DNA of 64,000 nt, from NCBI RefSeq assembly GCF_016757965.1, contig NZ_JAEKIW010000004.1, positions 1-64,000 of the forward strand. Reading direction: 5' to 3'. This DNA is from Archaeoglobus neptunius. Lineage in GTDB: Archaea > Halobacteriota > Archaeoglobi > Archaeoglobales > Archaeoglobaceae. A model generated the notes under the pieces. It saw nothing but the letters and a program-made list of their open reading frames with translations. It ran no database searches and was not told where the DNA came from. Positions within the stretch are counted from its first letter, which is position 1. Every line of letters begins with the position of its first letter. Positions 7,183 through 15,076 of the stretch are shown here, in pieces. The position numbers and the translations under genes were made by a program.

Positions 7183-7449
7183 ATGGGTAGTGTTGTGATG
7201 AAAATCCGTGTGATGCCGAGCGATGTCGACGTGAATCTTGATGAGGTTCTGGAGAAGATAAAAAACATTCAGATGGAGGGTGTGGAGCTGAGGGATAGTG
7301 CGATTCAGCCGATAGCCTTTGGGTTGAAAGCGCTGGTACTTATGGCGGTGATGCCCGATACCGGGGGAGTCGGAGACAGGTACATAGAGGAGATAGGAAA
7401 GATAGATGGAGTGGAGAGTGTCGAAATAGAGGATATGGAGTTGCTATGA
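7183..7449 (+). CDS. Translation elongation factor EF-1 beta (GDP/GTP exchange factor for EF-1A)
   Basis: An 88-aa archaeal EF-1B guanine-exchange domain. Seen: KIRVMPSDVDVNLDEV at the start, IQPIAFGLKALVLMAVMPD in the centre and GVESVEIEDMELL at the end, the usual archaeal length. It catalyses nucleotide exchange on EF-1A. A GAGGTGAT site precedes the ATG at 7183; the stop overlaps the start of the downstream hydrolase by four bases (ATGA). Confidence 0.95.
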   Translation: MGSVVMKIRVMPSDVDVNLDEVLEKIKNIQMEGVELRDSAIQPIAFGLKALVLMAVMPDTGGVGDRYIEEIGKIDGVESVEIEDMELL

Positions 7450-8075
7450 AACCGATAAGGATTGTTGCTCCACCCCTTGCAGCAAACTGCTATCTTCTTG
7501 CTGATGAGAAGAAGGCCTTGATAGATGTCGGTGGGGATATAGAGTTCATTCTCAGGGCTGTGTCGAAGTATATCGATCCCAAGGAACTTGACTACGTCAT
7601 CTTGACACACTCCCATTATGACCATGCGGCTGCTGCGGGGCACTTTAAGGGTTTGGCGAAGATAGCAATTCACAGGGATGAGTATTCGCTGATAAAGGCT
7701 CAGGGGTTCACATCATTCATGTTCGGTGTCAGCTTCAAACCCTTTGAGCCCGATATTATGCTTGAGGGTGGGGAAAGAATAGAGCTTGGAGAGATAAATC
7801 TGGAGGTCATTCACACTCCCGGACACTCTCCCGGAAGTATCTGCCTTTACGAGCCGGAAAAGAGGTGGCTTTTCAGCGGAGATACGGTTTTTGCCCACGG
7901 TAGTTTTGGCAGGGTTGATCTGCCCGGTGGAAGTGCGAGGGAACTGATAAAATCTCTGGAAATGCTCTCCAAGCTTGACGTTGAAAATCTGTATCCGGGA
8001 CATGAGGACATTGTTGAGGGAAATGCGAGCAGACACATAGCCAACTCTCTCAGAATCGCAAAGATGTTTCTGTGA
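7446..8075 (+). CDS. Metallo-beta-lactamase-fold hydrolase (glyoxalase II-like)
   Basis: A 209-aa soluble MBL-fold enzyme. The metal ligands are visible: THSHYDH (~55-61), HTPGHSPGS with the next His (~123), and FSGDTVFAHG with the bridging Asp (~146), plus a late His in YPGHED (~181). It resembles hydroxyacylglutathione-hydrolase-like thioesterases, but archaea lack glutathione here, so the substrate is unknown. The ATG overlaps the EF-1-beta stop. Confidence 0.85.
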   Translation: MKPIRIVAPPLAANCYLLADEKKALIDVGGDIEFILRAVSKYIDPKELDYVILTHSHYDHAAAAGHFKGLAKIAIHRDEYSLIKAQGFTSFMFGVSFKPFEPDIMLEGGERIELGEINLEVIHTPGHSPGSICLYEPEKRWLFSGDTVFAHGSFGRVDLPGGSARELIKSLEMLSKLDVENLYPGHEDIVEGNASRHIANSLRIAKMFL

Positions 8076-8335
8076 AGTACATACACCTCTTCGGAATGAA
8101 TGCTGAGGAGATAAGGGCTGAAATCAGGAGAGTGCTTGATAGACTTGGATTCGAGATTTTTGAAAAAGATTTTGAAATCGTTGCATCAAGGGATGAAGAA
8201 AAGGTAAGGGTAGAAATGAGGTATATGGGGAAAAGCAACCTCAACCTGCCCCAAACTGAAGTGATTTTTGAATGTGCTGAAGACGTTCACGCCGAAATCA
8301 TCAAAGAGCTCCGAACTTCGAGGATGGGGGGATGA
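8072..8335 (+). CDS. Conserved-looking hypothetical protein (87 aa)
   Basis: GTG start in a GTGA overlap with the preceding hydrolase, indicating coupled translation; an ATG 24 bases inside is an alternative. Charged alpha/beta protein (AEEIRAEIRRVLDRLGFEIF, then strands, ending KELRTSRMGG) with no motif I recognise. It is the last gene before the cassette island. Confidence 0.6.
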   Translation: MKYIHLFGMNAEEIRAEIRRVLDRLGFEIFEKDFEIVASRDEEKVRVEMRYMGKSNLNLPQTEVIFECAEDVHAEIIKELRTSRMGG

Positions 8336-8416: not shown

Positions 8417-8497
8417 TGCTAACTTCTGGGGATAGGTGAAGTCCGGCGAAGCCGAATTCGGGAGCGAAGGCTGTGGGAGTGGCCGGTGAAGTTATTT
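8417..8497 (-). repeat. attC-like site 1
   Basis: Ends in TGCTAAC (8417-8423) and GTTATTT (8491-8497); next to these, AACTTC pairs with GAAGTT. The centre holds GGCGAAGCC and GGGAGCGAAGGC. The stop codon of the 2TM gene lies inside the right core. More degenerate than site 5. An extra inverted core, GTTAGCA, lies at 8340-8346. Confidence 0.45.
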
Positions 8498-8782
8498 TTT
8501 AGCCTTCCGTGCTCTGTATTCAGCTTTAGCTTCCCTTTCCTCAAGTGTTCTCTCTAACCAGTGAACACCGAATAGGTAGTGCATCGATATTCCAATTCCC
8601 CAGCCGATAAGCGGGTAAATGAACCAAATCGCTTCTGGAGAATATATCAGGTTGATGACTATCAACATGGCGTTAACCAGTAAGTATACCGCTAAATGGA
8701 CTAAAAACCCTCTTTTCTCCTCCTCCTTTCTTATTTCTCTGTATGCTTTTTTATAATCCTCTAATGTAATTTCCTCTGCCAT
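8492..8782 (-). CDS. 2TM-domain membrane protein (cassette gene)
   Basis: A 96-aa protein with a charged N-terminus (EDYKKAYREIRKEEEKRGF), two adjacent membrane helices (HLAVYLLVNAMLIVINLIY and WFIYPLIGWGIGISMHYLF) and a basic tail (AKAEYRARKAKK). This matches the bacterial and archaeal 2TM-domain family of unknown function. An AGAGGTGA ribosome binding site and a TTTAAAAA TATA-like element lie in the 57 bp between attC-like site 2 and the ATG. Confidence 0.75.
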   Translation of the reverse strand: MAEEITLEDYKKAYREIRKEEEKRGFLVHLAVYLLVNAMLIVINLIYSPEAIWFIYPLIGWGIGISMHYLFGVHWLERTLEEREAKAEYRARKAKK

Positions 8783-8838: not shown

Positions 8839-8915
8839 GTTGAAACTTGGTGGGTGCGACCGAAGGGAGCCGATCCTGGCGTAGCAGAGCGGAGTCAAAT
8901 ATCTGCCCGTTAAGC
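8839..8915 (-). repeat. attC-like site 2
   Basis: Ends in GTTGAAAC (8839-8846) and GTTAAGC (8909-8915; GCTTAAC on the minus strand, a good RYYYAAC). Inner pair GGTGGGTGCGA / ATCTGCCC. It separates the 2TM cassette from the decayed MNT/HEPN unit. Confidence 0.55.
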
Positions 8916-8984
8916 GACATTAGGCGATTTGGGTTCTGTAAGAACCGTGTATCCACTGTCAGATGACTTCTGGAATTCTCTTTT

Positions 8985-9274: not shown

Positions 9275-9356
9275 ACTTAATATCCAGTATGCGAAGTCCT
9301 GAGCGTAGCGAAAGATTTGGCTAAAGCATAGCGAAGCCAGATGCCCACTGTTATCT
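9275..9356 (-). repeat. attC-like site 3
   Basis: Ends in ACTTAAT (9275-9281) and GTTATCT (9350-9356). Inner parts CCAGTATGCGAAG and CCAGATGCCCACT; the latter, with the following GTTA, is nearly identical to site 5. The centre has GTAGCGAAAG and AGCGAAGCC. It starts 10 bp after the methyltransferase stop on the minus strand. Confidence 0.6.
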
Positions 9357-9366
9357 GCCGCTACTA

Positions 9367-10158
9367 TCACTCTTTTACCGCTATCAGAAATACCCTGTTG
9401 AATTTTAGTTTCACCATTCCATTTTCATCTGATTGCCGTTCAAATGCTTTTTTCACGATTTCCATGAATGCTGAAATATAGTCTTCTGTCAGCTCCACCT
9501 CATAGCAGTCTTGGTTTAGATATCCGGCTATTGCTCCAGAGGAAAGTATCTTAAACACGTCTTCAGGCGTGTGTTCCGTTGTGATTGAAAACATAACTTT
9601 AAAACCGCATCTCTCGAACAGAGATTTATATTCTTCTGCAGTTTCAAGGAAGAACCATGGTTCTCTAAAGTGAGCGAATATTTTCTCCGTTCTTTTGTCT
9701 CTCTTCATCATTTCAATAGCCTCTATAAAATTGGGACAGTATATTTTCTTCGCAGGCGCCTGAGTCCCGATTCTTCCACTCCTCTTCAATGATCTGTAGC
9801 AGTTTTTTATCGCTTTCTCCGGATCTTTAAACCACTGAAAGGCTGAGTTACAGAAAATAACATCAAAACCTTCTTCATAATCCATGTTTTCTGCACTTTT
9901 AATTTCGTATGTTATGTCCAACCCTTTGCTTTTTTCAATGGCTTCCCTTATCATCCCTTCAGAAGGATCTATTCCCACAACTCTTCCCTTCGTCAGACTC
10001 CTTATCTTTCTCGTTAAATGTCCGGTCCCGCATCCCAAATCTAAAACATCGTCATTCTCTCCGATTTTCAGAAGTTTTAAGAGTATTTCTGATGCTGATT
10101 TTTGAACAGTGGCATATTTTTCATACCCATAGCAATTTTTGAAAAATCCACTTTTCAT
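9367..10158 (-). CDS. Class I SAM-dependent methyltransferase (cassette gene)
   Basis: Rossmann-fold methyltransferase of 263 aa with motif I VLDLGCGTGHLT (~45-55), the acidic ribose-binding residue in GIDPSEGM, and motif IV FDVIFCNSAFQWF (~105), similar to trans-aconitate/ubiquinone-type small-molecule methyltransferases. A longer ORF to 10251 exists, but its 31 extra residues translate attC-like site 4 and are Cys/Pro/Gln-rich, so I place the start at ATG 10158 (MKSGFFKNCYGY). Substrate unknown. Located between attC-like sites 4 and 3. Confidence 0.8.
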   Translation of the reverse strand: MKSGFFKNCYGYEKYATVQKSASEILLKLLKIGENDDVLDLGCGTGHLTRKIRSLTKGRVVGIDPSEGMIREAIEKSKGLDITYEIKSAENMDYEEGFDVIFCNSAFQWFKDPEKAIKNCYRSLKRSGRIGTQAPAKKIYCPNFIEAIEMMKRDKRTEKIFAHFREPWFFLETAEEYKSLFERCGFKVMFSITTEHTPEDVFKILSSGAIAGYLNQDCYEVELTEDYISAFMEIVKKAFERQSDENGMVKLKFNRVFLIAVKE

Positions 10159-10185
10159 ACCCCCGCAATGAGCGTTCTGGGAACA

Positions 10186-10288
10186 TGTAAACTTTGCCGT
10201 AGGTTGAGCCTGAGGGCGAAGACACACATTAACCCCAATGGAGCAAGGCACTGCAGAGTGCCAAGCACAGTCTCATTCCCGCTTAATA
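10186..10288 (-). repeat. Degenerate attC-like site 4
   Basis: Ends approximately at TGTAAAC (10186-10192) and CTTAATA (10282-10288), which contains the stop codon of the DUF6544-like gene as in site 1. The outer stem is weak; GGGCGAAGAC and an internal GGCACTGCAGAGTGCC hairpin occupy the centre. Called mainly because it lies exactly where a site is expected between two cassette genes. Confidence 0.35.
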
Positions 10289-11128
10289 CACTGAAGGCCT
10301 GTTATACTCAATGTCGGTGATCTCAATTTTGTCATAGCAGAAATCTCCGGTTTTTAATTTCCAGACAATATTTACCTTGTTCGGAATGATAACGCCGTTA
10401 AACTCCCTGTATTCGGCGATCAGCCCTTCCCAGTCCTCAAGTACAAATCTGCCATCCACTTCCCTATATCGCTTTGCTGTTATCTTTGTTACCTCTCCTT
10501 TTTCATTAAAATGAAAAATGGCAGAGGCTTCAGTTCCTTTATAATTAATTGTTGCTTTTGCTGAACTGCTATTGATGGCTTCCCACCTGATGTAGTCATT
10601 CAAGAACGCTGAGGGAAACCATATGCACTCAGCAAGAAATCTCAGGATTTCTCCATTATCGACTTCATATCCCTTTGCATCAGCAACCTTGACAAGTCCG
10701 AGCAGTTTCACCTCTAAATTTCCTTTACCATCGATAAATTCGTCCTTTGCGAATATTGACACAAATGGAAGGATTCTAACTTTTGCGATCCAGACAAACT
10801 CAACAGAATCAGCATTGAAGTATTGTTCTGCTTTTATTGGCATCCACTTTTGATTCTCGTTCGTCCGAAAATATCCACCCTGTTTCAACCTCACTGTTTT
10901 GATCTTTTCTTTACCTATAATCTGCGTGTACTTCAAATACCTTTGAACGGGTTCGGGCAATCCTTCTATATCCCTCTCAGTAACGACTTCCAGTTTCTCT
11001 TTGTCCTCTGTAAATAGTGCCTCCGCCTCTTCTTTCGCCTTTTTGGTAAATGCAAAGCTGCCTATAACACAAGCTGATACTATTAGGACAACAGTTAGGC
11101 CTAAAATAATCAGAGTAATTTTTAACAT
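10283..11128 (-). CDS. DUF6544-like membrane-anchored protein (cassette gene)
   Basis: A 281-aa protein with one N-terminal membrane helix (ITLIILGLTVVLIVSACVIGS) and an extracytoplasmic domain. The segments LPEPVQRYLKYTQIIG, RLKQGGYFR and WFPSAFLNDYIRWEAI match the DUF6544 pattern, a family of unknown function found mostly in bacteria. AAAGGAGAT precedes the ATG, and a TATATAGA element near 11160 lies between attC-like site 5 and the gene, so it can be expressed by archaeal machinery. Confidence 0.7.
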   Translation of the reverse strand: MLKITLIILGLTVVLIVSACVIGSFAFTKKAKEEAEALFTEDKEKLEVVTERDIEGLPEPVQRYLKYTQIIGKEKIKTVRLKQGGYFRTNENQKWMPIKAEQYFNADSVEFVWIAKVRILPFVSIFAKDEFIDGKGNLEVKLLGLVKVADAKGYEVDNGEILRFLAECIWFPSAFLNDYIRWEAINSSSAKATINYKGTEASAIFHFNEKGEVTKITAKRYREVDGRFVLEDWEGLIAEYREFNGVIIPNKVNIVWKLKTGDFCYDKIEITDIEYNRPSVY

Positions 11129-11192: not shown

Positions 11193-11284
11193 GTTTAACG
11201 ATCGGCGGGTATGCGAGATGTGAAGCGAAGCCGAGGATTTGGGTGAACACCGTAGGTGCTAAAACTGCATGCCCACTGTTAGAC
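11193..11284 (-). repeat. attC-like site 5 (best example)
   Basis: Plus-strand left end GTTTAAC (11193-11199) pairs with right end GTTAGAC (11278-11284), 6 of 7. On the minus strand these are GTCTAAC (RYYYAAC) and GTTAAAC (GTTRRRY), both fully consensus. The inner arms GGCGGGTATGC and GCATGCCCACT pair, allowing G-U. The variable centre contains GAAGCGAAGCCGAG. Total 92 bp, typical of attC. The membrane-protein stop codon is 9 bp away. Confidence 0.8.
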
Positions 11285-11292
11285 GGAGGAAC

Positions 11293-12177
11293 TTATCCAG
11301 TTTCTTCTGACCACCGAAGTAATTCGCGTAGAGAACCGTGGTGGCGGTTCAATAGCCAGACTACGATCCAGCCGAATATGAAGTTTGAAGATGACACCTC
11401 TACAAAATGGGCAATTCGTATTGTATGGGGCATATAGGGGTTCGGCAGCAAAAGAAGTGATCCCATCAGAACCGAGAAAAGCAGAGCTACTGCCATCCCT
11501 GCCTCCCACCATTCACCCCTCATCATCTGAATTATCGGCAGTGCCAGAGCAGTCCATATCATCGCCCTCACCATCTGAAACGGGAGTATCCACACGGGCA
11601 ACTGGAGGCCAGCATAATACTTCTGGAATGCATTGCCTGCGAGCGGCTTAAAGACAAACATACCAAATGAGATGTAAAGGATGACGTAGATAACTACAAT
11701 CAGTGTCAGTTTCCAAACCCACTCTGTCAAAGGCATGATTAGGCGTTGATTGGCTCCCTGCGATTCCTTAGCCGTTTTCATTCGTCCGTGGATCAGAACG
11801 GCTAATGGCGAAAATAATGCTGCAACGATAGCTCCATGCATAAACAGCATGGGAATGATCTCAGCCGGCACAATGTCCACTAAATATCTGAGAAACACAA
11901 CAGTCTCGATTTGAGACTGAAATGTCATCACTCCATAGAACACGAAGAAGATCGTTAAGACCAGTCGCCAGCCACTCCATCGGGATCGTATGATTGGATA
12001 GCTCAGTACGATGGTCTGAAGAGCGCACACAGTCAGCAGAGCCACTACCGTACCCGTCAGATCGGCAGTTTGTGCTGGCAGTCTAACCGCCATTGAGGCT
12101 ACCGAATAACAAACGAATAGGAGGAAAGTCAGGACAAGTATTTTCAATCCAAGCGTAATTGTTGTTTTGGTGTTCAT
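11293..12177 (-). CDS. Polytopic membrane protein (cassette gene)
   Basis: A 294-aa protein with about eight hydrophobic segments (first KILVLTFLLFVCYSVAS, last FIFGWIVVWLLN) and few charged loops. I recognise no family. Compared with its neighbours the sequence is more GC-balanced and richer in Trp, Gln and Thr codons, which suggests a different, perhaps bacterial, source. No strong ribosome binding site is seen (AAGGCGAG lies near the ATG). Situated between attC-like sites 6 and 5. Confidence 0.7.
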   Translation of the reverse strand: MNTKTTITLGLKILVLTFLLFVCYSVASMAVRLPAQTADLTGTVVALLTVCALQTIVLSYPIIRSRWSGWRLVLTIFFVFYGVMTFQSQIETVVFLRYLVDIVPAEIIPMLFMHGAIVAALFSPLAVLIHGRMKTAKESQGANQRLIMPLTEWVWKLTLIVVIYVILYISFGMFVFKPLAGNAFQKYYAGLQLPVWILPFQMVRAMIWTALALPIIQMMRGEWWEAGMAVALLFSVLMGSLLLLPNPYMPHTIRIAHFVEVSSSNFIFGWIVVWLLNRHHGSLRELLRWSEETG

Positions 12178-12205: not shown

Positions 12206-12276
12206 GCCTAACGTACCGCGGAACATACCCATAGGGAAATTTGGGCAAGCATTAGCGAGTTGCATATCCGTTAGCA
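12206..12276 (-). repeat. attC-like site 6
   Basis: Ends in GCCTAAC (12206-12212, consensus RYYYAAC on the plus strand) and GTTAGCA (12270-12276). Inner parts CGCGGAACATACC and GTTGCATATCC pair weakly. It begins seven bases from the hicA stop codon. The shortest site, at 71 bp. Confidence 0.6.
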
Positions 12277-12282
12277 AAGCTC

Positions 12283-12486
12283 TCATAATAAATCTTTCAA
12301 TTCCTCCTTAGTTATACCCGCCTGTTTCAAAATTTCGAGCAATGTCCCTTTTGGTAAATCCCGTTTATGGAGTCGTGTCTGGGTGATAGTAGATACGGTG
12401 ACTTCCTTTAACTCTATCCAGTACGAATCCTTTCCTTTTAAGAGCCTTGATAACTTTCTCAGGGGTGAGTTTGGAAGCTTAGGCAT
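12283..12486 (-). pseudogene. hicA: hicA toxin, scrambled by two compensating frameshifts
   Basis: The open 67-codon frame has a normal HicA start (MPKLPN) and end (HKRDLPKGTLLEILKQAGI), but the middle is unlike HicA. Another frame of the same bases gives LTPEKVIKALKRKGF, then VKGSHRIYYHPDTT, the true HicA core with its catalytic His in GSH. One base appears lost just after the PN codons, and a second indel near HKRD restores the frame. The encoded protein therefore lacks the RNase active site although the ORF looks full length. Downstream of hicB, overlapping it by 8 bp. Confidence 0.75.
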
Positions 12487-12718
12487 GAGTCTCTACAGTC
12501 AATGTGTATTCCAAGGTTCCTTCATCCGTTGGAATCTCTTCACCATGTTCTCGTAGGCTCTCTATATACAATTCTATGGCTTCTTTTGCCATCTCAATTG
12601 CTTCTTCTATTGTTTCGCCATATGTAATGCATCCCGGGAGGGATGGAACTGTTACTGTGTAACCTCCTTCTGGCTCTTTTCTAAGCAAGATTCTGTAACT
12701 TAACCTCACGTTGATCAC
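12479..12718 (-). CDS. hicB: HicB-family antitoxin (cassette gene)
   Basis: A 79-aa HicB fold: strand YRILLRKEPEGGYTVTVPSLPGC, then TYGETIEEAIEMAKEAIELYIESL, the partial RNase-H-like domain that binds HicA. It appears intact. No DNA-binding tail is present, as in short HicBs. GTG start at 12718 (a second GTG lies 9 bases inside). Partner of the damaged hicA immediately downstream. Confidence 0.88.
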   Translation of the reverse strand: MINVRLSYRILLRKEPEGGYTVTVPSLPGCITYGETIEEAIEMAKEAIELYIESLREHGEEIPTDEGTLEYTLTVETHA

Positions 12719-12744: not shown

Positions 12745-12825
12745 TTAATCTTTTCTTCCAAGTTGTTTAACAACAGCTATCCTTATTTTATCTTTAATTC
12801 CTGTATCCTCAGCTATTCCATTCAT
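12745..12825 (-). CDS. Possible 26-aa ORF after hepT
   Basis: The ATG overlaps the HEPN gene stop (ATGA) and gives a 26-residue basic peptide ending VVKQLGRKD. It may be a translated cassette tail or a fragment of a lost gene. No attC-like site separates it from hicB. Confidence 0.25.
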   Translation of the reverse strand: MNGIAEDTGIKDKIRIAVVKQLGRKD

Positions 12826-13165
12826 TCCTCCAACTCCTCCAGTATCTTTTCAAATTTGGGTTTGAGAGGTTGAATTTCTTTTTCTATGACCTCCCGTACG
12901 ATTTCTAAATCAACACCGTGATACTCATGAATAAGCTTGTCTCTCATACCTGCAATGTATTTCCACGGAATTTCTGAGTATTTGTTCCTGATTTCTGAAG
13001 GAATTTTCTTCACAGCCTCACCCATCACTTCCAGACTTCTAATAACAGCATTTACAGTTTTTCTATCTTTTACGAACTCTTCAAAGCTCATACTTCCATG
13101 AATTCTTCAATTTCCTGAATAGATGACAAGATGTCCAGTATGTAATCCCTGTATGTTCTTTTCAT
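12822..13165 (-). pseudogene. hepT (HEPN) toxin with a frameshift near its N-terminus
   Basis: The gene starts in an ATGA overlap with mntA (MKRTYRDYILDILSSIQEI) and runs into a stop after FMEV. A one-base change at about 13092 would join it to the frame starting MSFEEFVKD, which continues through GMRDKLIHEYHG (HEPN R-x4-H RNase motif) to the end at 12822. An 89-aa protein could still be made from the internal ATG at 13091, without the first helix. HEPN toxins of MNT/HEPN pairs cleave RNA and are silenced by adenylylation from MntA. Confidence 0.75.
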
Positions 13166-13458
13166 ACTGTTACAACCTCTTCAAGGATATATTTTCCAAT
13201 ATGTGGCTTAAGCGCCTTCTTAGATACAAGGTCTACTTTCCTACCTATCAAATTGCTCAGATATTCCTCCAGTTCGAGGAATTTAAAGAATCCTATCGGT
13301 TTTTCGAATTCAACCAGTATGTCAACATCACGGTCCTCTTTCGCTTCTCCCCTCACAAAAGAGCCGAAGATACCAGTTTCTTTAACACCATATTTTTCTT
13401 TAAGCTCTCCTTTGTGTTTTTCGATAATCTCCTTAATCTCATCAAGTGATTTTTTCAT
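13162..13458 (-). CDS. MntA-like minimal nucleotidyltransferase antitoxin (cassette gene)
   Basis: A 98-aa MNT-domain protein with GIFGSFVRGEA (GSF-x-R) and DRDVDILVEF (D-x-D metal site), features of pol-beta-type nucleotidyltransferases that AMPylate HEPN toxins. Intact, with the stop in an ATGA overlap with hepT. A TATA-like TTTAAAAC about 30 bp upstream of the ATG, inside the cassette and after attC-like site 7, may drive a leaderless transcript. Confidence 0.88.
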   Translation of the reverse strand: MKKSLDEIKEIIEKHKGELKEKYGVKETGIFGSFVRGEAKEDRDVDILVEFEKPIGFFKFLELEEYLSNLIGRKVDLVSKKALKPHIGKYILEEVVTV

Positions 13459-13524: not shown

Positions 13525-13600
13525 ACTTAACGTTTGGCGGGTATGCGAAGCCTTTAAGGGTTTGAGTGAGCGAAGCGAACTGCATACCTGCATGTTAGCA
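13525..13600 (-). repeat. attC-like site 7
   Basis: Ends in ACTTAAC (13525-13531) and GTTAGCA (13594-13600). The inner arms GGCGGGTATGC and GCATACCTGC pair; the left arm is identical to that of site 5 although the centres differ, as expected for attC sites. The centre has GAGCGAAGCGAAC. About 50 bp beyond it is the restored end of the hepT pseudogene. Confidence 0.75.
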
Positions 13601-13653: not shown

Positions 13654-14010
13654 TTACTTTTTGCTGTTCCATCCTTCCCTTTGAATTATTTCTTTCATTT
13701 GTTCTCTCAAATGAGGGATGTCTAGGTTTATTATATCCCACACAATATCCCAGATCAACACCAAAATATGAGTGAATGAGTTTGTCTCTTGTTTTAGCGA
13801 TCTCTTTCCATGCTATTTCGGGATATTTTTCTTTTAACGTTTCAGATATATTTTTCACAGCTTCTCCAATTATCTCAATCTAATGATTGCATCCTGTGTT
13901 TTTCTATCGCCTATGAACATCTCATAATCATACCCTTCTTTGTAACACAGTATGTTTTCGCAGGCAGTAAGAATATCCGTTACATACTCCCTGTCCCTTC
14001 TCTTAGACAT
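13654..14010 (-). pseudogene. hepT (HEPN) toxin with two frameshifts
   Basis: Starts in an overlap with mntA (MSKRRDREYVTDILTACEN), reaches a stop after DAIIRLR, where about four bases appear missing, resumes as [19 protein letters not shown] with [13 protein letters not shown] (HEPN R-x4-H), then an extra G after GVDLG shifts it again. Correcting both gives a normal C-terminus ending NSKK at 13654. Uncorrected, the frame runs into attC-like site 7. Confidence 0.75.
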
Positions 14011-14320
14011 ATATAATTCCCTGTTTTATGCTTTTCTTGATCTCATCGCTTCTTATAGACTCTATACCCGTCGGGGTTAAGATATCTACGGATCTGCCAA
14101 AAAGATTCTCGAGATACTCTACTAAACCCCCAAAATTCTTAAATGTGCCTTTTCCTCTTTCAAATTCGACAACAATATCAATATCACTCTCCTCAGATGT
14201 TTCATCACGGGTAAACGAGCCAAATATCCCAATCTTTTTTACACCGAATTTTTCAAGTTCTTTTTTGTGCACCCTTATTAGTTCAATAATTTCTTTACTA
14301 TCCATTTTACTCACACTCAT
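14003..14320 (-). CDS. MntA-like minimal nucleotidyltransferase antitoxin (cassette gene)
   Basis: A 105-aa MNT protein with GIFGSFTRDETSEESDIDIVVEF, i.e. GSF-x-R and a complete SD-x-D metal site, so probably catalytically able. It overlaps the hepT start by eight bases. An internal ATG at 14304 (MDSKEIIELIR) is an alternative start. Paralogous to, but clearly diverged from, the MntA at 13162. Confidence 0.85.
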   Translation of the reverse strand: MSVSKMDSKEIIELIRVHKKELEKFGVKKIGIFGSFTRDETSEESDIDIVVEFERGKGTFKNFGGLVEYLENLFGRSVDILTPTGIESIRSDEIKKSIKQGIIYV

Positions 14321-14342: not shown

Positions 14343-14840
14343 TTAAAATTTTCCTCCTAAGGCGTATGGAATTTTGCTAATAATAATATCTGCTTCATCT
14401 TTTCCACCTAAATGTTTTGCATCATTGAATCCTAATATCTTAAAGGCTTCTGTTAGTAATTTTTCAAATAATGTTGGGTCGTCGCTATTTCTTTGACTCT
14501 CTCTTAATCTCTCAATTAGAGGCACTTTTATTCCGTTACTATTTTCTGCCGATTTTACAAAGCTTCTCCTTCCTTTTTTGTTTATATATATTTTATTATT
14601 TTGTCTTAATATTTCAACAATATCGCCGTCGTTATATTTCTCTTTTAGTTTCTTTCCTATGGATATTCTCCGCATATTCCAATCTGCTTTTTTACCTCCT
14701 ATATTTTCTCCCTCAAGAATAATTTCTACCTCTTCCTCTTCAGGAAAAATTTCTTTAAATTTTTCATCTTCTTTTTTTAACCATCTGATATATCCGTAAC
14801 TCAATTGCCAACCAGTTAGTTCATGTTCTATCTTTTTCAT
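14343..14840 (-). pseudogene. Truncated PD-(D/E)xK-like nuclease (cassette gene)
   Basis: A 165-codon frame: an N-terminal charged region of unknown fold, then SDDPTLFEKLLTEAFKILGF and HLGGKDEADIII, the start of an Mrr/restriction-endonuclease-like core, ending at ALGGKF. A one-base shift at that point continues KILILEAYTV, which resembles the strand carrying the catalytic E-x-K, before another stop. It therefore looks like a frameshifted nuclease. A GGAGG site lies near its ATG. It is the outermost (right) gene of the island. Confidence 0.5.
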
Positions 14841-15076
14841 TTTTATTCCTCCTTAAAGCGGGGTTCGGGATTTCAGACAACTCGTTCATATACAATTGCA
14901 TATATCTGCATTACGTATATACTCATTCTGGATGCTCCTCATATGACTTGCCTCCCATTAAATCTAATGGGCTTCTAATCCTTTCATAGCAAACGAGTAT
15001 AAATCTCCGTCGTTTTCGAATGTTTATATCCCAGTGGTGAGCCAAAAATATTTATTCGTCAAAGTCAAGAAACTTC

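Follow-up and report, generated by a model that had tools for sequence, protein, structure and literature searches.

Site 5 (92 bp) of the analyzed window, a stretch of 64,000 nucleotides from the Archaeoglobus neptunius genome, is, judging from its sequence, a genuine attC-like gene-cassette recombination site; it is not a textbook attC. Very probably, it is the 3′ recombination site of a cassette carrying the ORF at 11293-12177, within a now decayed chromosomal integron array whose enzyme would be a tyrosine recombinase with a HARP-like N-terminal domain (HARP-integrase). This reading is based, on the one hand, on a family of sites that share a covarying stem, show strand asymmetry, and lie after co-directed genes and, on the other, on a conserved attI-like block downstream of the integrase, the co-location of integrases and sites, and the cassette-wise turnover between relatives. 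On the minus strand, the array would extend from about 15.0-14.87 kb, where an integrase remnant and attI lie, down to about 8.4 kb. Pairing of R''/R' and L''/L' would fold a cassette's bottom (+) strand in the cell; the HARP-domain recombinase would then bind the arms and cut in R', by analogy probably at G|TTRRRY, and the cassette would thereby be joined to attI or a further site.

Layout and model scores of site 5

In gene sense, site 5 consists of R'' (GTCTAAC), the spacer A, L'' (GTGGGCATGC), and a loop with CCCAAAT, followed by its second half, L' (GCATACCCGC), the spacer CGATC, and R' (GTTAAAC). A sequence-only reading of the window had placed both consensus cores within these 92 bp, and there they are: on the + strand, GTTTAAC occupies 11193-11199 and GTTAGAC 11278-11284, both matching RYYYAAC / GTTRRRY. 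The same holds for the G-U tolerant inner stem, the 10-bp arms of which (GGGTATGC / GCATGCCC) are complementary, one pair being a G.T wobble when read on the + strand and a C.A mismatch when read on the minus strand, and for the orientation, which is that expected for minus-strand cassettes. A gene stop does lie close by, that of the minus-strand ORF 11293-12177, with a gap of 8 nt to the site. The label "near-textbook" had to be dropped: the spacers are asymmetric instead of 5/5 and the fold of the site itself is weak (see below).

When the 64 kb were scanned for cores plus inner stem, site 5 was the sole match. Two covariance models were used. R1, built from seven sites of the A. neptunius genome and of a same-genus relative (G007), gave 76.8 bits, a value partly owed to site 5 having been among its training sites. 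R3, which replaced a first model trained with window sites, was built from 58 sites of other genomes, none of them from A. neptunius or G007; these sites had been collected via R1, which had seen site 5. With the held-out R3, site 5 scored 59.7 bits (E 1.3e-9) and ranked first across the 2.1-Mb genome, which supports the attC-type cassette site claimed for 11193-11284. A search against Rfam yielded tRNAs only.

The site family

With R1, sites were found in 19 of 60 relatives and in 64 of 247 genomes of the phylum; the family set used here comprises 89 sites, phylum-wide. Read in gene sense, they have the consensus GTATAAC-A(g)-GCGGATATGC-GGCT...CCCAAAT...GAACTTC-GCATAYCCGC-CAAAAC-GTTATGC. The spacers are asymmetric throughout the family, with 1-2 nt after R'' and 5-6 nt before R' (1 and 5 nt in site 5), and an unpaired central spacer of ∼5 nt on both sides is absent from site 5 and family alike. 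The center of the site, which had been described as variable, is in fact conserved in parts (apical GGCT/ACTTC, loop CCCAAAT). The fifth base of R' is T in 41 of the 89 sites; because R' often reads GTTATGC, strict palindrome or core scans miss most members. In 66 of 77 cases, the ORF preceding a site runs in the same direction as the site, and the median distance from stop to R'' is 36 bp.

The inner stem covaries. Compensatory changes occur at nine of its 10 pairs, 218 cells are changed on both sides (96.7 ± 12.2 when shuffled), and the covariation score is 0.343, compared with at most 0.12 for slid controls. These changes could alternatively reflect a double-stranded inverted binding site. 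An alternative to be weighed, which we consider unlikely yet by no means negligible, is that the HARP-integrase recombines the sites in an Xer-like manner as double-stranded inverted binding sites and not in folded single-stranded form; lacking the IntI-specific insertion, the enzyme could not read extrahelical bases. In line with this alternative, the integrase does lack the insertion, the attI repeats are double-strand palindromes (both described below), and the stem of the sites melts at the probable growth temperature (computed at 80°C with a DNA parameter set). On the other hand, in 86 of the 89 sites the bottom strand gives the more stable computed attC-like fold, and apical-stem mismatches appear as G.T 32 times on the bottom strand versus nine times on the top strand (a feature picked post hoc), neither of which is expected for a purely double-stranded site; in addition, the spacing of the arms varies. 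Apical GGCT/ACTTC, which scarcely varies among the sites, may provide bulged bases as candidates for the extrahelical bases behind strand choice.

For site 5 itself, the bottom-strand fold that had been suggested as a check gave a divided answer. The attC-like shape is present, 0.7 kcal/mol above the minimum free energy, and the inner-stem probability is 0.36 on the bottom strand versus 0.09 on the top strand; the overall, unconstrained single-stranded fold, in contrast, is no better than that of shuffled sequences on either strand, for which reason the fold of this single site does not count as proof here. The energy of the attC-like fold is −6.1 kcal/mol, compared with −18.8 kcal/mol for the aadA1 attC.

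Sites and cassettes of the array

The features of the array, all on the minus strand, are as follows:

14926..15034, minus, integrase C-terminus remnant in two frames, LGYKHSKTTEIYTRL and RIRSPLDLMGGKSYEEHPE* (tblastn E 5.7e-5)
14870..14924, minus, attI-like block GAGTATATACGTAATGCAGATATATGCAATTGTATATGAACGAGTTGTCTGAAAT with GTT core (R2 13.2 bits at 14870-14908)
14343..14840, minus, gene of the first cassette past attI, without Pfam family
14003..14320, minus, nucleotidyltransferase (MNT-type) cassette gene (Pfam PF01909)
13525..13600, minus, attC-like site 7, TGCTAAC-AT-GCAGGTATGC...GCATACCCGC-CAAAC-GTTAAGT (held-out R3 41.7 bits, E 1.7e-5)
13162..13458, minus, nucleotidyltransferase (MNT-type) cassette gene (Pfam PF01909)
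12822..13091, minus, HepT-like cassette gene (Pfam PF01934)
12282..12715, minus, HicB antitoxin / HicA toxin-like genes (Pfam PF15919, PF07927)
12206..12276, minus, attC-like site 6, partly deleted (R3 15.3 bits, marginal)
11293..12177, minus, membrane-protein-like gene, no Pfam family, upstream of site 5
11193..11284, minus, attC-like site 5 (cores, inner arms, and models)
10283..11128, minus, DUF6544 gene, single-gene cassette (common to G007; G052 at 76.5% identity)
9367..10251, minus, methyltransferase cassette gene (actual start probably lies downstream of 10251)
9275..9356, minus, attC-like site 3 with partly decayed cores (held-out R3 34.1 bits, E 9e-4)
8840..8967, minus, decayed or truncated site(s) (8922-8967 matches site r3 of G007; the models find none)
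8492..8782, minus, 2TM-domain gene, last array cassette (Pfam PF13239)

Site 5 is the best preserved of the seven sites originally listed, and only those at 11193, 13525, and 9275 pass either model. The site at 12206 is marginal across models (13-15 bits), and the remaining ones are decayed or truncated and stay below both.

The window is part of contig C4 of a 32-contig genome, and the array is surrounded by FtsZ, tRNAs, and an acyl-CoA synthetase. At the G007 locus, these flanks are retained and enclose a different array; contamination is, thus, implausible. The DUF6544 gene is the only cassette common to both genomes at this locus, and the cassettes around it differ; it also follows a family site in G052, which belongs to another family (76.5% identity). 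In the cassette common to G045 and G071 (87%), homology begins at R' in both. The window and G015 have a HicAB stretch in common, where homology ends at 12281; the cassette edges in this pair, and in the pair G061-G052, are blurred and serve as evidence of co-location only, not of boundaries. No clean empty chromosomal site was found, the loci L006 and L008 diverging past the MBL gene.

The head of the array

The array begins with the integrase remnant, directly followed by the attI-like block. Taken alone, this block is degenerate and weak (E 0.165 genome-wide) when scored with R2, a sequence-only model made from nine attI-like blocks. R2 recovers held-out blocks of G004 (1e-14), G007 (3e-10), and the A. 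neptunius copy on contig C1 (1.4e-8). Each HARP-integrase is followed downstream by two or three palindromic repeats (GATATACGCAATATTGCGGATATACC type, with GAAGTTATATGAAAT at the end) that precede the first cassette gene, and the conserved block lies 14-172 bp past the integrase stop. The repeats are double-strand palindromes, and the similarity of the repeat half to the L' arm of the sites suggests that one enzyme serves both. At the same locus of G007, the order is likewise integrase remnant, attI, and first cassette. Remnant and attI-like block at the array head thus point to an integron from which the integrase gene was lost, and indicate that the site 5 array did not arise as an integrase-less cluster.

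This arrangement also bears on a quite different explanation, namely that the sites are dispersed inverted repeats or miniature transposons (REP/MITE-like) that came to lie at gene ends by chance, with no cassette recombination. In its favor, several copies in the window are decayed and the family is scattered over many contigs. However, the orientation after genes is fixed (66/77), the tandem arrays start at integrase and attI, and cassettes common to different families have their edge at R', so that we regard this explanation as very improbable.

The HARP-domain integrase

A second integrase copy of A. neptunius (G000), a frameshifted tyrosine recombinase gene, lies at C1:124712-125518. Downstream of it come an attI-like block, a radical-SAM/EVE gene, a site, a ParE/RelE-type toxin gene with a small gene upstream of it, and a second site, which was matched though absent from the first training set. 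Relatives of this integrase have an N-terminal HARP-like domain, SAM-like and catalytic domains, and an IntI-like IKSPLD end. The Pfam cut-off for HARP is passed by a spirochaete member; the archaeal members are weaker. Compared with IntI1 and IntI4, HARP-integrases lack the IntI-specific insertion around patch III (∼41 residues). They score 228-253 bits with NF040815 (cut-off 220) and 207-237 bits with TIGR02249, which is under the cut-off of 265 and above the XerC/XerD models. In the tree, they form one clade with Bacteroidota proteins (99/98), apart from IntI (100/99). TIGR02249 had been tried as a detector of the enzyme and was dropped, as it matches Xer in all 14 controls; the enzyme assignment rests on domain structure, score order, and context.

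Both copies in A. neptunius are broken, the one on C1 by frameshifts and that of the window by being reduced to a C-terminal remnant, so that, barring an enzyme that acts in trans, the array has probably stopped exchanging cassettes. Genes of HARP-integrases with stops or frameshifts were seen at G000:C1:124712-125518, G004:C14, G044:C1, and G023:C49, as if the gene were often lost once an array is built. Directly upstream of archaeal HARP-integrases, a gene for a PRiA4_ORF3-like zinc-finger protein was observed in two genomes (L004 8039-8689, L137 3812-4348), which may be part of the element. Among viral contigs, no close integrase was found.

Association of integrase and sites across genomes

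Within the phylum, sites occur in 19 of 20 genomes with a HARP-integrase, compared with 64 of 247 overall (Fisher p 1.2e-11, without correction for kinship). In G000, G044, G061, G062, G063, G186, G198, and G213, the distance from the integrase to the first site downstream, on the same strand, is 0.1-2.1 kb. No HARP-integrase was detectable in 45 of the 64 site-bearing archaeal genomes. In Spirochaetota, sites and integrase each occur, and their co-occurrence in a genome is at chance level (4/33 vs 3.8 expected).

Comparison with known integrons

Site 5 has in common with attC of class 1 and chromosomal integrons (aadA, cmlA, and VIM-2 cassettes) the RYYYAAC / GTTRRRY cores and L''/L' arms, a computed bottom-strand bias, the position after a co-directed cassette gene, and the occurrence in tandem arrays. 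It differs in the spacers (∼5 / 5-6 nt in the canonical attC of class 1 controls, 1-2 / 5-6 nt in the family) and, again unlike canonical attC, the family conserves apical GGCT/ACTTC and loop CCCAAAT. Neither R1 nor R3 found any class 1 attC, and a scan for the asymmetric form matched sites 5 and 7 in the window and none in a class 1 array. Canonical bacterial chromosomal integrons, which had been named as the comparison to make, are likewise not the best match, as the integrase linked to the sites is one without the IntI-specific insertion. HARP-integrases and IntI (TIGR02249; IntI4 structure 2a3v) have SAM-like N-terminal and catalytic domains and the (I/V)(K/R)SPLD C-terminus in common; unlike IntI, the former stay below 265 bits, lack the ∼41-residue insertion, and form a separate clade. 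They score above the cut-off of NF040815 (recomb_XerA_Arch, "site-specific tyrosine recombinase/integron integrase"), and unlike its description, they have an extra HARP-like N-terminal domain and lie beside attI and cassettes.

Integrons have been reported in archaea, with 539 attCs and with integrases that carry the IntI-specific domain (Ghaly et al, 2022, PMC9668308). The elements described here are alike in the archaeal host, the attC arrays, the attI beside the integrase, and the integrase being mostly missing, whereas HARP-integrases lack that domain; some of the 539 attCs may belong to the site 5 family. In the literature searched, subscription journals and preprints being outside its scope, no paper on attC in Archaeoglobus or on HARP-domain integrases was found.

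It is conceivable, if improbable, that a canonical IntI with the IntI-specific domain, acting in trans or since lost, built the cluster as a CALIN and that the HARP-integrase is an unrelated neighbor. CALINs have been described in archaea and archaeal attCs can serve as substrates of IntI1 (PMC9668308), the cores fit RYYYAAC/GTTRRRY, and two spirochaete genomes with R3 sites also have canonical IntI. Yet no canonical IntI exceeded the cut-off in the 60 relatives, nor in 24 of the 26 site-bearing genomes tested, and the site models match no class 1 attC. The head of the window array consists of a HARP-integrase C-terminus and an attI-like block, and in archaea the sites co-occur strongly with HARP-integrase. 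A HARP-integrase as the enzyme remains the preferred reading.

A possible second lineage of integrons

On sequence grounds, site 5 likely belongs to a little-noticed second kind of integron, with the HARP-integrase as its enzyme. The wider notion of a second integron lineage, represented among Archaea by Archaeoglobi and further families of their phylum and also present in Spirochaetota and Bacteroidota, with HARP-domain recombinases devoid of the IntI-specific insertion, its own attI, and asymmetric attC, and with tet(X3) as a cassette from one such integron, is somewhat less certain, and we consider it rather plausible. Integron recombination is held to require the IntI-specific domain. If the notion is correct, a plainer enzyme sufficed for cassette capture to arise, or suffices for it to persist, the role of the IntI-specific domain becomes directly testable, and chromosomal integrons extend to relatives of Archaeoglobus. 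Such arrays would then have been reported as integrase-less clusters because the usual search demands the very domain that is missing.

Further loci in Spirochaetota and Bacteroidota

HARP-integrases of Spirochaetota were seen at loci L224-L232, several of them followed by attI-like palindromes with a GTT core. On G291:C127, two spirochaete HARP-integrases are arranged in tandem, and on G391:C22 one lies upstream of two R3 sites on the same contig. Contigs C167, C201, and C232 (L220) of the spirochaete genome G308 contain at least eight R3 sites of up to 79 bits; neither kind of integrase was detected in this genome.

The mobile tetracycline-inactivation gene tet(X3) has long been seen beside an "xerD". 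On an Acinetobacter plasmid (L212, NZ_CP104735.1, 2967-5117), the "xerD" beside tet(X3) is placed within the HARP-integrase clade, on its Bacteroidota branch (52% identity). Between the two genes lies a palindrome with a GTT core, GTGGATATATACGCCATTTGGCGTATAGCCACTTGTTATGTGCC, and TACTAACAAGCAGTTTTGCA... follows tet(X3). The locus looks like an integrase-attI-cassette-attC arrangement, with a weak model match (17.6 bits, E 0.5). On a Chryseobacterium plasmid (L210, NZ_CP041688.1, 4968-8218), a HARP-type integrase is followed by a palindrome and, after co-directed genes, by two sites with spacers of the family's asymmetric type at 7369-7501 and 8085-8218, where shuffled sequences average 0.14.
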